A program made the position numbers and the translations under genes. The notes beneath the pieces were generated by a model that saw only the letters and a list, made by a program, of their open reading frames with translations, was not told where the DNA came from and ran no database searches. From assembly GCA_021818955.1 (NCBI GenBank), contig JAKASR010000021.1:1-64000 (forward strand): a stretch of DNA of 64,000 nucleotides, in the 5' to 3' direction. Source of the stretch: Acidobacteriota bacterium (GTDB lineage: Bacteria; Acidobacteriota; Terriglobia; Terriglobales; SCQP01). Positions 3,602-25,472 of this stretch are shown here, piece by piece; the stretch's first letter is position 1, and every line of letters begins with the position of its first letter.

Positions 3602-3750
3602 ATGGCGCAGAGCACAAAGCGCAAAGCACAGAGCACAAAGCGCAAAGCCAGAATTTGTCTGGGCGCAGCCCGCAAGCGGGCTGCTTTCCACGGAAGGAAA
3701 TGCAAAAAGCGCAGGGCGCAGAGCGCAGAGCGCAGGGCAGAAAGCTAAAA
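3602..3750 (+). repeat. Second GCGCARA heptamer array with one palindromic cassette
   Basis: The heptamers match the array at 415-826. The cassette at about 3650-3702 again carries GCAGCCCGC-AA-GCGGGCTGC and ends TTTCCACGGAAGGA. Orientation is as in the first array. It separates plsY from the AT-richer ATPase gene and marks the left edge of the compositionally odd segment. Confidence 0.9.
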
Positions 3751-3828: not shown

Positions 3829-4938
3829 GTGATAAAACGACTGTACATTCACAATTTCCGATGCTTGGAGAACTTTGAACTTCCCATTCAAGGCCGATCT
3901 TCGATCCTCCTTATCGGAAAAAACGGAGCTGGCAAGACTACAGTTGGTTTTGCCCTTGAAATCCTTCAGAGGATTGCACGAGGAACAAATCGGGTTGGCG
4001 AACTGGTCAGGCCAAAAGATATTGCCCATAGCCGCGCGGACGTCCCCGTTCGATTCGAACTCGAGGTTGAGCTAAGAAATCAAGTTTACGGATACGAAGT
4101 TGCTTTTGAGTTACCAGAAGGCTTTAGAGAGCTTCGCGTTCGCGAAGAAAAGCTTTCGATCAATAGCGAAATCGTATACAGCCGAGATCTAGCAACGGTG
4201 CATCTGAAGAAAACTGGCCAGGCAAAAGAAGCAGTCTTCTCCATCGATTGGCACCTGGTGGCCCTACCCATTATTCAGCAACTCCCAGAAAACAACCCCG
4301 TCAATATTTTTAAAGCATGGTTAGGACAAACAATAATACTTCGACCGCTGCCAAGCCTAATTCTCGGCCACTCTCAAGAAGAAACTCTACTGCCGAACAT
4401 TGATGTCACGAATATCGGCGCCTGGTTCGCTGGCATGGTGGCCCATGCACCGGCAGCTTACAGCACTATCGACCATTACTTGAAACAAGTAATGGTCGAT
4501 CTGGTCGACATAAAGAATCCGCTCGTTGGAACCGACTCACGTAGTTTGTCCGTTCAATTCTCAAATAAACAGGGGGAGTTGAAGCTACCCTTCGCGGAAC
4601 TTTCCGATGGTGAAAAATGCTTCGTCATTTTCGCCCTCGTGCTAGCGGCCAATAAAGCCTATGGACCGTTGCTTTGTTTTTGGGATGAGCCTGACAATTA
4701 TCTTGCCCCATCCGAAGTTGGGCATTTTATCATGGCTCTACGCAGCGCCTTTCAATCAGGAGGTCAATTCATCGCTACATCCCACAACACAGAGGCAATT
4801 CAGCGATTTTCGGATGAAAACACACTCGTCCTATTCAGGAAGAGCCACCTTGAACCAACGATTATTCGCAGCCTAGATAAGATTCACCATACTTGCAACT
4901 TGGTCAGTGCGCTTGTTCTAGATGATCTGGATTTATGA
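3829..4938 (+). CDS. AAA/ABC-type ATPase of a two-gene module
   Basis: A 369-residue ATPase of the SMC/OLD-like class. From the chosen GTG it starts like related proteins (KRLYIHNFRCLENF). Walker A is G30KNGAGKT37, an ABC-type signature LSDGEK begins at about residue 258, Walker B is WDEPDNYL with D286 and E287, and a switch His is in ATSHNTEAI at about 319. The roughly 220 residues between Walker A and the signature match no domain I know. It shares an ATGA overlap with the next gene, so the two proteins are almost certainly made together. The start is uncertain: a longer frame opens with TTG at 3796 and neither has a Shine-Dalgarno, but TATACT at 3815-3820 would fit a nearly leaderless GTG start. 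The gene is AT-richer than its neighbours, suggesting transfer. OLD-family, PARIS (AriA) and RloA-type defence ATPases are comparable, but the exact family is not known to me. Confidence 0.8.
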   Translation: MIKRLYIHNFRCLENFELPIQGRSSILLIGKNGAGKTTVGFALEILQRIARGTNRVGELVRPKDIAHSRADVPVRFELEVELRNQVYGYEVAFELPEGFRELRVREEKLSINSEIVYSRDLATVHLKKTGQAKEAVFSIDWHLVALPIIQQLPENNPVNIFKAWLGQTIILRPLPSLILGHSQEETLLPNIDVTNIGAWFAGMVAHAPAAYSTIDHYLKQVMVDLVDIKNPLVGTDSRSLSVQFSNKQGELKLPFAELSDGEKCFVIFALVLAANKAYGPLLCFWDEPDNYLAPSEVGHFIMALRSAFQSGGQFIATSHNTEAIQRFSDENTLVLFRKSHLEPTIIRSLDKIHHTCNLVSALVLDDLDL

Positions 4939-5435
4939 GTGCCAATAAGTACTTGCAGCACGTCTTTGTACTCCCCGAAGATGATGCGAATCGCCAGATT
5001 GCAAATGGATTCTTTCTTGCTCTTGCTACGGGACAATATCAGCGGCAGTTCAATATATTGGAAACAGCAGGCGGTTGGAATGAAGTTCTTGTACGTTTCA
5101 ATAGCAGCTACGCCGCAGATATGGACATTATTCCAACCCGTTTCATGGTTCTCTTAATCGATTTTGACAACCATTTGGACAGGCTTGAACAAGCGAGAAA
5201 CAGAATTCCCAGGCATTTGCATGATCGTGTATTTATTCTTGGCGCTCTCGGTGAACCTGAAAGCCTCAGGCGAGACCTCGGCTCTTATGAAGAGATCGGC
5301 CTAGCGATGGCTCGAGATTGCCGAGAAGGAACTGATACGGTTTGGAGTCACCCCCACCTGCAGCACAATACACAGGAAATCGCACGATTGCGACATCAGA
5401 TCTGTAATTTCTTGTTCCCCCCACCAGTAAATTAG
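4935..5435 (+). CDS. Small TOPRIM-like partner of the ATPase
   Basis: A 166-residue soluble protein translated from an ATG that overlaps the stop of the ATPase gene (ATGA). The pattern is HVFVLPEDDANRQIANGF (acidic E15, D16, D17), then a strand MVLLIDFDNHLDR with D76-x-D78, then DRVFILGALGEPESLRR. A glutamate after one hydrophobic strand and a DxD after another is the metal-binding layout of TOPRIM nucleases and DUF4435-like proteins, so a metal-dependent nuclease or phosphotransfer role is inferred, not shown. I recall similar ATPase neighbours for such proteins but know of no assigned function. It is shorter than AriB of PARIS. No signal peptide or membrane helix is present. Base composition is AT-rich like its partner. 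Confidence 0.7.
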   Translation: MSANKYLQHVFVLPEDDANRQIANGFFLALATGQYQRQFNILETAGGWNEVLVRFNSSYAADMDIIPTRFMVLLIDFDNHLDRLEQARNRIPRHLHDRVFILGALGEPESLRRDLGSYEEIGLAMARDCREGTDTVWSHPHLQHNTQEIARLRHQICNFLFPPPVN

Positions 5436-5555: not shown

Positions 5556-5778
5556 TAGGGCGCGAGGGTCAGGGTATGGCGGGCATGTAGTTGGACGGCG
5601 GCGGGGGAGAACCAGAGCGGCACTGGCGGGCCGCCTTGCAGCCAGGCGGGGAACTGATCGCAGTAATGGCGGCGCAACGGCTCACCGGCCTCGCCGACAG
5701 GCAGGGTAAGGATGCTGCGGTCCCAGTCGGCGAGGTTGGCGACGAAGCGCATGCTCTGGCCGAAACGTCCGGTATTGG
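5556..5778 (-). pseudogene. Truncated copy of the 3' end of the penicillin acylase gene
   Basis: This 223-bp block aligns without gaps to 7095-7317, the last 75 or so codons of the intact acylase gene, including NTGRFGQSMRFVANLADWD and FSPAAVQLHARHTLTLAP. I counted about 13 mismatches, all but one of them G/C in the intact gene and A/T here, which fits decay without selection. The homology stops at GGTATTGG and is followed at once by heptamer-like sequence (GCGCAAGGCACAGAGCGCAG). There is no acylase start or active site, so it is a remnant. It lies in the same orientation as the intact copy, 1539 bp away, and the two flank the exported-protein gene. Confidence 0.85.
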
Positions 5779-5780
5779 CG

Positions 5781-5812
5781 CGCGCAAGGCACAGAGCGCA
5801 GGGAGCAGGGCA
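5781..5812 (+). repeat. Trace of GCGCARA heptamers at the acylase-fragment breakpoint
   Basis: The bases right after the truncated acylase copy read GCGCAAGGCACAGAGCGCAG, a short degenerate heptamer run in the same orientation as the larger arrays. It sits exactly where homology to the acylase gene ends, suggesting the repeat took part in the rearrangement. Confidence 0.5.
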
Positions 5813-6049
5813 GATAGCAAAAATTAGCAATAGCGAGCACCGGCGGGATGAATGAGAGGCTGTCCGGATAAATCGAGTTCTAGGTCTGAATGAGGTGGAG
5901 ACGTCGGTAAAATAGAGAAGAAAAACTAGCCATTTCGAGATTTTCACCAGCGCTACTGTCCGATTTTGATGATTACGCAGGCGCGGGCGCCCGCACTTGC
6001 CCCAAACTCGTAGCGAGTGTATATTGGGCCAGTGGAAATCACTGTCAAT

Positions 6050-7000
6050 ATGAGCATCTTCGTAAAAATACAGAAATATCTTGCAATAAGGCTAATGACG
6101 ATTTTGAGTCTTGCCTCACTGTTTGCCTCACTTTCCGCTCAATCAGCCTGGCAATATCGCGCTAAAGAATCGAGCACATCCATTGGACAATCCATCAACG
6201 GCGGATTAATAACAAATATTAATAAAAGGAATGCAAGCATACTGATAGGCGCCAACCAAATGATAATTAAAATTAAAGATCAAGTTGTGATTATCAATTT
6301 AAAAAAGCACCTTATTACTGTTATTGATCATAAGAAGCATGAGTATGCCACGCATGCCTGGCATAAAGTAAACCCTTCGATGCTCTTTCCGGCCGACTTA
6401 TATCCAGCCCCTATCCGGGCAGGAAAAAGCGTTACTTATCAGCGAATTCATAAAAAGACGGTTGCCATAACGCTGGAAAATAAATCAGAAAACTTCGGCA
6501 TGGAATCGATTCACGGCACCGCCGCCTACCATACGGCAATCATTCAACGCATGCGGTCGAAATTTCAAGAAGATCAATGCACCATCACAGATTTCTGGAA
6601 TTCCCATGACTTCAGACCCGACCCATGGCCGCCTTTTCTTCATGCAATATCCACAACAGATTTAAATACATATTGGTTAACCATCCTGCCTTCAATCCCG
6701 ACATCGGGCATACCCGGGGTTATTCTACTTCCAGGCTCAACACCCAATGCCGGCTTTCCCATTCAAATCAAGCAGACAATGTTAGAAAGCAATCCCTTAC
6801 AAAAAACCGCCTCGATTCGAGTCCATTCTTCGCTCCTCAGCCGTTGCGGATATGATGGCAATAAAATCATAGATGAAGCCACATACGATAATATTATAAA
6901 TTATCATTTTCAGCATATAACCCCATCGGAAAGTACATTTAAGATACCGGATGGTTATCGTCAAGTACCAATTGACAAATTCGAACAGACTATTTTTTAA
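6050..7000 (+). CDS. Exported protein of unknown function, AT-rich
   Basis: I do not recognise this protein with confidence. The N-terminus has a signal peptide: basic start, then a hydrophobic stretch around MTILSLASLFASLSAQSA, predicting cleavage near AQSA. The mature part has beta-rich stretches such as QMIIKIKDQVVIINLKK and HLITVIDHKKHEYATHAW, which recall DUF4412-like periplasmic domains ('it measures itself, then checks a stored ID' style strands), but this is weak. Two cysteines are far apart (QCTITDF and SRCGYDG). The frame is open from a GTG at 6017; I prefer the ATG at 6050. No good Shine-Dalgarno is present. Its A+T content is far above the flanking acylase gene, and it lies between the two copies of the acylase 3' end, so it probably arrived by insertion. 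Confidence 0.65.
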   Translation: MSIFVKIQKYLAIRLMTILSLASLFASLSAQSAWQYRAKESSTSIGQSINGGLITNINKRNASILIGANQMIIKIKDQVVIINLKKHLITVIDHKKHEYATHAWHKVNPSMLFPADLYPAPIRAGKSVTYQRIHKKTVAITLENKSENFGMESIHGTAAYHTAIIQRMRSKFQEDQCTITDFWNSHDFRPDPWPPFLHAISTTDLNTYWLTILPSIPTSGIPGVILLPGSTPNAGFPIQIKQTMLESNPLQKTASIRVHSSLLSRCGYDGNKIIDEATYDNIINYHFQHITPSESTFKIPDGYRQVPIDKFEQTIF

Positions 7001-7090: not shown

Positions 7091-10000
7091 CTAGTAGGGC
7101 GCGAGGGTCAGAGTATGGCGGGCATGCAGTTGGACGGCGGCGGGGGAGAACCAGAGCGGCGCGGGCGGGCCGCCCCGCAGCCAGGCGGGGAACTGATCGC
7201 GGTAATGGCGGCGCAGCGGCTCACCGGCCTCGCCGGCGGGCAGGGTGAGGGTGCTGCGGTCCCAGTCGGCGAGGTTGGCGACGAAGCGCATGCTCTGGCC
7301 GAAGCGTCCGGTATTGGAGCGCACCGTCCAGCGCCCGCCGGGCATCCGGCGGGGGCCGAGATCGGCGCGGGCGCGCAGCAGCCAGAAATGGCTGTAAAAC
7401 GGATGCGGGACAGCGAGCGGATGGCGGCGCCCCCATTGCCAGGCGCGGCGATGGGCGGCGAAAGCGGCGGCCTGCTGCTGGAAGACAGCGAGCAGCAGCG
7501 CATCCCAGGCGGCCTGGGGATTTTGTGCGGCGGAGGCGGCATAGGAGGGAGGCAGCCAGGCGCGGGGCGACTGGCGCAGCCAGCGGCGCCAGACCAGCGG
7601 CCATTCCATCCAGCGGTATTGGGCGGCGAGACGAGCGCCCAGGCGGGCGGTGAGCACGGTGCGCATCAGGGCGCGGGTGGTGCGCACGGCCAAGGTGGGA
7701 GCGTCGCGGCGGGCGCGCATGTCGCCATGCCAGCGGCGCAGGCTGGCGAGCGCCGTTGCGACGGCGGGGGAAAATGATGCGCCGGCGGCCTGGCGGCGGC
7801 GGGCGGCGGCGAGGATGGCGGCGGCCATTTCGGCGTCGGGACGCGAGTGCACGTCCAGTTGCACCGCGCTCATTTGCGCCGCATGCCAGCGCGGGCGCGC
7901 CAGGAGCAATTGCAGAATGCGATGGGTGCGGAAGGGCGATTCCCACTCGCGGGTAAGCCGGCGGGCAGGCTGGCCGGCGGCGATGCGTCCATTGGCGGTG
8001 ACGATCACGCCGGAAGCGGGATTGTAAACCGAAGGCAATTGATTGAAAGGCAGCCAGCCGCCGGCGTCCAAAGCGGGAGCGGGGCGGCGGCCGTCTTGAA
8101 TGCGCCAGAAGGAAGCGGAGCGCGGAATCCAGCCGGCGCACTGGTAGCCGATGTTGCCGTGGCGGTCGGCATAGACAAAATTCTGCGCCGGGCCGGGAAA
8201 CAGTTGCAGCGCCCGCTCGAATTCTTTCCAGTTGCTCGCCTGGTCGATGCCGAGGAAGGCATCGATGGCATTGAGCGCGCCGGAATGGTACATGGTCCAA
8301 TCCAGCGCCACCACCTGGCCCTGGAGCGCGCCCACGACAGGCCCGGCGGGAGTGAGAAAGACAGGATAGTGCACCGGCGCCTGGCCGTGCACGGCAATCG
8401 TCTCCCAGCGGATTTCGACCGGCTGCCAGCCCGAGGCGGTTTCGATTTCGGGCACGTCGCTGTTGTCAATGGCTTTGGCCAGGCCGGGCGCCAGCACGCC
8501 ATGGCCGAGCGCGCGCAACTGCGCCGGGCTGAGCGGCACGGCGGAAGGCGCGCGCGGCGGGGGTTGATGGCGATGTTGCGAGGCGGCGGGCGCGGCGGGC
8601 GCGGCGGGCGCCGGCAGCGGCAGGCGGATGGGATAGCGGGTCAACTGCTGCACGTTGGCGAGCGCGTTGGTGACGCCCCAGGCGATCTGGTTATTGTGTC
8701 CGATGACGACGCCGGGCACGCCGGCCAAGGCCACGCCGGCAACGGCGAGCGGCTGGAGCGGCGCGGAGGGCTTGGAGTTCGATACCACCTGGAAGGGGAC
8801 GTAGCCGCGCCGGGCTTTAACTGGCCGGTGAGAATGGCGCGAGCGCCGGGGCGCGGCGGCGGAATGCGCGCCCGCCGCGGTTCGTCCGGAGTGGCGAATT
8901 TTATGCTCCGGCTTCGCCGCCGGCTTGCGCGCTGATTTCCGCGGCGGGGTTGGGCTTTTGGCGGGGGCGGAGGGCGCGGCCTGGGCCGGAGCGGGAGCGG
9001 GGGCGGCCGATGCGGGCGGCGGCGGGACCACCCGCAACTCCACCGTCCACCAGATGCCGGGAATCTGGTAGGGCAGATGCGGATCGTTGGCCAGGATGGG
9101 CTTGCCGTTCAGGCTGCGCGCGGGCCCGAGCACCCAATTGTTGCTTGCCGCCGCGGCGGCGGCGGCGGTTGCGGCAAGCGGGCCGAGGGCGTGGCGGCGC
9201 GGGAGTTCAGGAGCGGAACCCGCAGCGGCGGCGGGAAGGTTATGCCGGGGCAAACGGGCGGCGCGCTGCCAGGCGGCGGGAATAAAGCGGGCGGAACGCC
9301 GGCGCTGCCAGGGCAGCGCGGCAGCGGCAGTCCGCCGGACACGCCGGACGGCGCGATGGTTTTTCGCGGCGCTTTTTTCGGGTGCGGAATGGCCGGGCAG
9401 CCGGCCGGGCAGCACATCGAGCGCGGAGCGCTCCGGATACAACTGGCGCGTCAACTTCGGACCCAGGCTGGCCTCGATGCGGGCATGCGCGAGCTTGACG
9501 CGGTAATTGGTGGTCAGCACCTCGTACATATAGGCGGTGATGGCGAGCGAATCGGCATCGGTCCAGGGGCGGGGGCGATAGCGCAAGAAGGTAAACTCCA
9601 GCGGCAGGCGGGAAAGATTGGAGTTGATGTAGGCATTGACGCCGTCGCTGAAGGCCTGCAAGGCGGAGCCGGCGGAATCGGGCAGCCGCTTGAACTCGGC
9701 TTGGGCGGCGGCAGCCAAGCCGAGGCGGCGCATGGCTTCATCGGCGGGCAGCAGTTGCGGGCCAAAGAGTTCGGCCAACTCGCCCTCGGCGCGGCGGCGC
9801 ATCAGGTCCATCTCAAACAGACGGTCCTGGGCCATGGCATAGCCTTCGGCAAAGAGGGCATCGTGACGGTTTTGGGCGGTGATGTGGACGACGCCCAACT
9901 GGTCGCGCACAATCGTCACCGGGGCACGCAAGCCGGCGGCGTTCAAGCTGCCGTCGAGCCGGGGCCGGGAACGGAAATAGAGCCAGGCGGCGGCAAGCAG

Positions 10001-11080: not shown

Positions 11081-25084
<14,004 letters not shown>

Positions 25085-25472
25085 AGCGCAATTTCTCCTG
25101 CCTAAATCACACACACTGATCTAAACCACACACACTGACTCCCCAGTGACTGCCACCCGCAAGTCATTTCCATGCCCAGCGCTTCATCGATAACAAGAAA
25201 CAAGGACTGCCGGCAAATGGCTTAAACTGGCGCAAGCTGAAAAATAACGACATGGCGGCATGACAGCTTGTGACATGCGGGGCGGGGCTAGCGCCGCGCA
25301 AAGGCGGCCCTGACGCCGGTCCGCTGATTGCCGCCTAAATGCCTGTGCTTCATGCATTTGAAATCTGGAAATGACGTATAATGGCAACGGTTCCCGTAGG
25401 CTGTCAGAAGATGACTCTAGATGACATGGCCGTGACTCGGCAGGACGCGCCGACTCCAACCGCAAACTCAAA
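25085..25472. other. Divergent intergenic region with a CACACACACTGA direct repeat
   Basis: Between the giant gene and the next regulator. Just upstream of the giant gene CACACACACTGA occurs twice (about 25110-25138), a possible binding site. TATAAT at 25377-25382 faces the regulator, but no matching -35 at the right distance is seen. The rest shows nothing I recognise. Confidence 0.4.

Follow-up and report, generated by a model that had tools for sequence, protein, structure and literature searches.

A conserved, coupled gene pair of Acidobacteria encoding an OLD-type ABC ATPase and a small acidic partner, a candidate split ATPase/TOPRIM conflict module

Two adjoining genes, here called A and B, are present in the window, which is the whole 64,000-nt stretch of acidobacterial DNA that was analyzed (Table 1). 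The ATGA stop/start overlap of the two genes described in the sequence-only reading was confirmed, and among the readable junctions of the copies this −4 overlap was found in 13, an overlap of −10 in one, and a spacing of +1 or +2 in four. The pair is also AT-richer than its neighbors, as had been stated, with a G+C content of 0.471 versus 0.626 in the remainder of the window.

Table 1. Positions of the gene pair, its putative active-site codons and the dispersed repeat in the window
Feature	Position	Strand	Basis
Gene A, OLD/RecF-type ABC ATPase, 369 aa, GTG start	3829..4938	+	Pfam AAA_21/AAA_15/SMC_N
Gene B, 166 aa, putative minimal TOPRIM metal-dependent nuclease, unnamed family	4935..5435	+	Invariant E15, G47, D76, D78
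ATGA start/stop overlap of A and B (translational coupling)	4935..4938	+	Junction survey of copies
Codons E15-D16-D17-A18-N19 of B, putative TOPRIM metal-binding Glu and its E+4 position	4977..4991	+	Conservation, hhalign
Codons D76-F77-D78 of B, putative TOPRIM DxD	5160..5168	+	Conservation, hhalign
Copies of the dispersed heptamer/hairpin repeat	412-823, 3605-3735, 5782-5838		Heptamer arrays, hairpin core

The protein encoded by gene A contains every ABC-type motif that had been claimed for it, which are the Walker A motif (G30-KNGAGK-T37), the LSDGEK signature (258-263), the Walker B motif (FWDEPD, 284-289) and the switch histidine (H319), and the residues of these motifs are nearly all invariant in an alignment of four sequences. 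In Pfam, A matched AAA_21 with 61.5 bits, AAA_15 with 53.8 bits, and also SMC_N. Its best PADLOC matches are all defense ATPases, with mad3 at the top (78.5 bits), together with AbiLi (71 bits), HEC-01A, AriA, GajA, and PtuA. Hence, as judged from its motifs and profile matches, A is an OLD/RecF-like ABC ATPase. The matches to defense ATPases need to be read with caution, because such ATPases also serve elsewhere, as exemplified by Cran1, an archaeal OLD protein that is essential and not antiviral (PMC12796447).

The surroundings of the pair had been read as marks of a horizontally gained module, and this part of the earlier argument did not hold. The heptamer array located 5′ of gene A belongs to a dispersed repeat, in which heptamer arrays (AGCGCAG/AGCACAA) are joined to a perfect hairpin, GCAGCCCGC-AA-GCGGGCTGC. 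Because a 57-nt copy of this repeat is also located on the other side of the pair, repeat copies flank both genes, and because the 25-bp hairpin core recurs 29 times in the genome, on several contigs, the array is not a mark of the module. What had been taken for a decayed gene fragment proved to be a 228-bp segment (5556-5783) that is a direct copy, 94% identical, of the 3′ end of the neighboring acylase gene (7095-7322). The two direct repeats bracket an AT-rich (41% G+C) ORF of 317 aa (6047-7000) with a signal-peptide-like start, and their arrangement resembles the outcome of an insertion that either carried in the end of the acylase gene or led to its duplication. This ORF was unmatched in Pfam, PADLOC, and NCBIfam, and none of 299 genomes of the class contained a relative. 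Elsewhere in the window, a single ORF of 4677 aa on the reverse strand (11081-25114), which has many repeated domains and a membrane-anchor-like end, apparently encodes a giant surface protein.

The distribution of the two genes was compared in several sets of genomes. In a phylum-wide sample, B was detected at E ≤ 0.001 in six of 297 genomes, one of which (L007) was a false match on reading, while a profile of B found it in 21 of 299 genomes of the class of the source organism and in 7 of 396 genomes of the phylum. Intact A (E ≤ 1e-70) was present in 17 of the 299 class genomes, and B was present in all 17. Carriers thus make up about 7% of the class genomes, and most of their relatives are without the pair. 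Other Acidobacteria and a cyanobacterial plasmid also carry it. Weak plasmid matches in Paenibacillus and Bradyrhizobium were dropped, since there was no annotated ATPase gene directly 5′ of them. Scans of IMG/VR with B and with A returned no relative, and no copy of the pair was found in phage records. The linkage of the two genes is strict: at the loci that were read, B is located directly 3′ of A wherever the contig allows, in a single gene order and as a separate gene. The A homologs are 50%–72% identical to A of the window, and among 16 intact pairs the mean identity of A was 59% and that of B 48%. The distance matrices of A and B co-vary (Mantel r 0.63, with one of 5000 permutations as high). 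Because codon positions 1 and 2 vary less than position 3 in both genes, purifying selection is apparent on both, and it is stronger on A than on B. These data show that A and B are a conserved, coupled unit.

The neighborhoods of the copies also provided evidence on their mobility. At all 20 loci the flanking genes differ, and they are of ordinary kinds, such as a type II/IV secretion ATPase, transporters, or urocanase; the G+C content of the pair is lower than that of the flanks at each of these loci (mean difference 0.056). In the cyanobacterium Kovacikia minuta, one copy is carried by a megaplasmid. Dolichospermum has a conjugative plasmid (L009) on which A is present and its B has been lost; near this A (4863-8590 of L009) there are VapC toxins, two genes for reverse transcriptases, and dnaX/holA/dnaN. 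Frameshifts interrupt A in L041 and L051, in L053 and L049 a frameshift or truncation affects B, and in genome G359 there is an in-frame stop in A, and B is split between frames. A Bryobacterales MAG (L002, 8131-8631) contains an orphan B without A, decayed in its N-terminal part and lacking a start, which is placed between unrelated genes. Some of the broken copies may be assembly errors, because many of the genomes are fragmented. In the trees the pair of the window groups with that of G171, from the same order, while the copies of f3, the family in which they are most numerous, do not cluster together in either tree; most forks are weak, and these poorly resolved trees mildly suggest horizontal transfer. 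A comparison at gpsA-plsY gave no clean empty site, because relatives keep gpsA and plsY joined and have no adjoining acylase gene. The differing neighbors, the lower G+C content at 20 of 20 loci, and the several decayed copies indicate a mobile, non-essential cassette, and the patchiness, plasmid carriage, G+C content, and decay argue for a cassette that is dispensable and yet selected. Hence, the earlier proposal of a horizontally gained module is upheld by the patchiness, flanks, G+C content, and plasmids, but not by the adjoining repeat and gene fragment on which it had partly relied.

Gene B had zero matches in Pfam, PADLOC, and NCBIfam, and is a family without a model in these libraries as searched. 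When 20 B homologs were compared with Pfam and PHROGs, there were scattered chance-level matches alone, and no solved structure related to B by sequence was found; the best match of the 20 homologs in a PDB profile search was thioredoxin, which with an E value of 0.21 is at chance level and was rejected as a relative. The statement that no family could be named for the partner of the ATPase therefore holds for the libraries tested, with RloB and the DUF4435 of AriB among the models that were unmatched. In all 20 homologs E15, D16, G47, D76, and D78 are invariant and position 19 is N or D, while E109 is kept in 18. This bears out the proposed D76-x-D78 motif in full, while in the proposed E15/D16/D17 cluster the first two residues are invariant and the third is not, since position 17 is D in 14 homologs, E in four, K in one, and Y in one. 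The homologs also share a conserved C-terminal block, consisting of C129, W137, H139, H144-N145, and E148.

The conserved acidic residues were compared with those of TOPRIM domains, which are defined by a Glu after strand 1, a Gly after strand 2, and a DxD after strand 3 (PMC6755086). In BpOLD these are accompanied by an E+4 residue, so that E400, E404, and D455/D457 are involved, with E404, T506, and E508 on the second metal (PMC6755086). At motif level B contains the whole set of Glu, Gly, and DxD, with the strand positions taken from weak models. The profile of B was aligned by hhalign with a profile of OLD TOPRIM domains gathered from the genomes of the phylum. In this alignment E15 and N19 of B matched E22 and E26 of the OLD profile (E, and E/D, respectively), GG46-47 matched GG/GA, D76xD78 matched DxD, and E109 matched a conserved E. 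The score of 14.7 was not significant, as 15 of 200 column shuffles were as high; in block shuffles the score and the acidic register were attained together in 0 of 150 and the register alone in two of 150. The OLD-like_TOPRIM model (PF20469) was unmatched in hmmscan at E ≤ 1 by B and its 20 homologs, and had no match in genome G000. For AriB, the TOPRIM was first detected by HHpred with an E value of 0.02 across about 60 residues (PMC9122126).

AlphaFold models of B were poor both from an alignment of the window sequence with L002 (mean pLDDT 58.6) and from the single sequence (mean pLDDT 47.3), and the N-terminal third was unmodelled. The elements pieced together from these two weak models are helix 17-31, strand 38-41, helix 48-65, strand 69-76, helix 81-90, strand 99-104, and helix 108-115. 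Their predicted order is that of TOPRIM, in which E15 precedes the first helix and D76 closes a strand; this is suggestive but no proof. A search with Foldseek and VIA-align listed parts of APOBEC and CorA at noise level and did not list TOPRIM, with the pLDDT-58.6 model being too weak to tell. Taken together, the motif register and the predicted elements make it quite probable that B has a TOPRIM fold. Alternatively, A could gate a conflict module in which B has another metal-dependent fold, either Rossmann-like or of a new effector, with its acidic strand ends being convergent. Such a fold would be in agreement with the weak models, with a profile score that on its own is inside the shuffle noise, and with the C-terminal block, which is unexpected in a bare TOPRIM, but it is unlikely in view of the five TOPRIM positions that are in register, order, and spacing and of the TOPRIM-like order of the elements in the two weak models.

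Split operons of an OLD-ABC ATPase and a TOPRIM protein are a recognized kind (PMC10568477), TOPRIM-linked OLD-ABC operons are a recognized class of conflict system (PMC12839542), and PARIS (AriA/AriB; OLD class 4) is the worked example (PMC9122126; PMC12409363). The pair resembles PARIS in that the OLD-ABC ATPase and the effector, which has TOPRIM acidic residues, are encoded by separate genes lying next to each other. PARIS is detected by an ATPase passing AAA_15 (32) or AAA_21 (27) together with a DUF4435 protein (PMC9122126). A scored well above both values, but DUF4435 (PF14491) had no match at E ≤ 1 in B, in its 20 homologs, or in genome G000, and so by the detection rule of PARIS itself the pair is not PARIS. 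Moreover, B is of about 160 aa and, unlike in PARIS, has its own conserved C-terminal W/H/HN/E block; PARIS is further characterized by activation by an anti-restriction protein and by tRNA cleavage. OLD classes 1-3 (P2 Old, GajA/Gabija, and Retron-Eco8) likewise have an ABC ATPase with TOPRIM motifs, in which E, E+4, DxD, and a later E are in the same order as in B. In contrast to these classes, the ATPase and the TOPRIM-like part are encoded by two genes in the copies read and not in one polypeptide, and the pair has no adjoining UvrD helicase or reverse transcriptase. Directly 3′ of the pair of the window there is no UvrD/PcrA/Rep-like helicase, but the acylase fragment and the unrelated 317-aa ORF, and hence the pair is not Gabija. 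RloA/RloB and AbiL are also composed of an ATPase followed by a small partner, and the AbiLi model is among the better matches of A; however, the RloB model (PF13707) was unmatched by B and its homologs, and a search of 119 genomes from the phylum detected no RloB. Septu and retron I-A (PtuA-PtuB) require an HNH nuclease partner, and B had no match to the Pfam HNH models or the PADLOC PtuB model. Although mad3 of MADS is the best PADLOC match of A, A reached 40.9 of the 420 bits of the NCBIfam MAD3 model, far under its cut-off, and on reading the window no other MADS genes were seen beside the pair. Hence, the pair is outside PARIS, Gabija, and RloAB, and by the NCBIfam cut-off also outside MADS.

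No clear defense gene was found among the 106 nearest neighbor genes, a near-zero count without enrichment. The PADLOC matches among the neighbors came from genes that by their motifs would encode a serine/threonine kinase (by L036) and an ABC exporter (by L042), and were not accepted as defense genes. The enrichment of homologous pairs near defense genes, for which a survey had been proposed as a check, was therefore not seen, and there is no island evidence. This absence, together with the SMC_N/RecF matches of A and the precedent of Cran1 as an essential, non-antiviral OLD enzyme (PMC12796447), would fit a role of the pair in DNA repair or the cell cycle instead of defense. Such a role is unlikely, because the pair is restricted to 7% of the class genomes, is missing in most relatives of the carriers, is plasmid-borne, and has been repeatedly pseudogenized. 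A toxin–antitoxin-like addiction pair, in which B would be toxic, A its neutralizer, and selection would act on maintenance and not on phage defense, would fit the tight coupling, the plasmid copies, the decay, and the AbiEii label given by Pfam to the AAA_21 family, but it is improbable because in the nearest analog, PARIS, deletion of ariA was non-toxic, which excluded toxin–antitoxin there (PMC9122126), while B without A (L002) and A without B (L009) decide nothing on it, because B is truncated or lost in both.

We therefore prefer, with a probability of about 0.55, the reading of A and B as a compact conflict module of the split OLD-type ATPase/TOPRIM kind, which works in a PARIS-like manner without being a member of PARIS. 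Compared with the compact split ATPase/metal-nuclease system of the sequence-only reading, the coupled, conserved, and horizontally moving pair and the TOPRIM residues in the OLD register stand, while the TOPRIM fold was not secured by the two poor AlphaFold models, nor defense by the neighbors. An anti-phage role is nevertheless rather likely in our view, and by analogy the pair would most likely halt phage-infected cells in the fashion of PARIS. For such a module we infer a mechanism in which A would dimerize through its ABC domain, bind B, and keep it inactive. Through its ATP cycle A would sense a trigger, for which a phage product or aberrant DNA is the likeliest candidate, and would then free or activate B. 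As a minimal two-metal TOPRIM nuclease based on E15/D76/D78, with N/D19 and E109 on the second metal, B could cut either tRNA, like AriB, or DNA, like OLD and GajA, and this cleavage would stop the infected cell. The patchy occurrence, differing flanks, low G+C content, and plasmid and broken copies fit a costly mobile module of this kind. More tentatively, at somewhat less than even odds, the pair could be a so far undescribed two-gene abortive-infection system, in which an OLD-ABC sensor controls an effector of about 160 aa that is among the smallest TOPRIM effectors standing alone, and this system would have spread horizontally in Acidobacteria and Cyanobacteria.

Because B is without a model in the searched libraries, annotation and defense finders built on them will miss it. 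If the preferred reading is true, the OLD/PARIS group gains a minimal pair in which ATPase and TOPRIM protein are separable. At issue in this group are the control of the nuclease by its ATPase and the choice between tRNA and DNA as the target (PMC10568477; PMC12409363). An effector of 160 aa that is encoded apart from its sensor would be a simple object for these questions.
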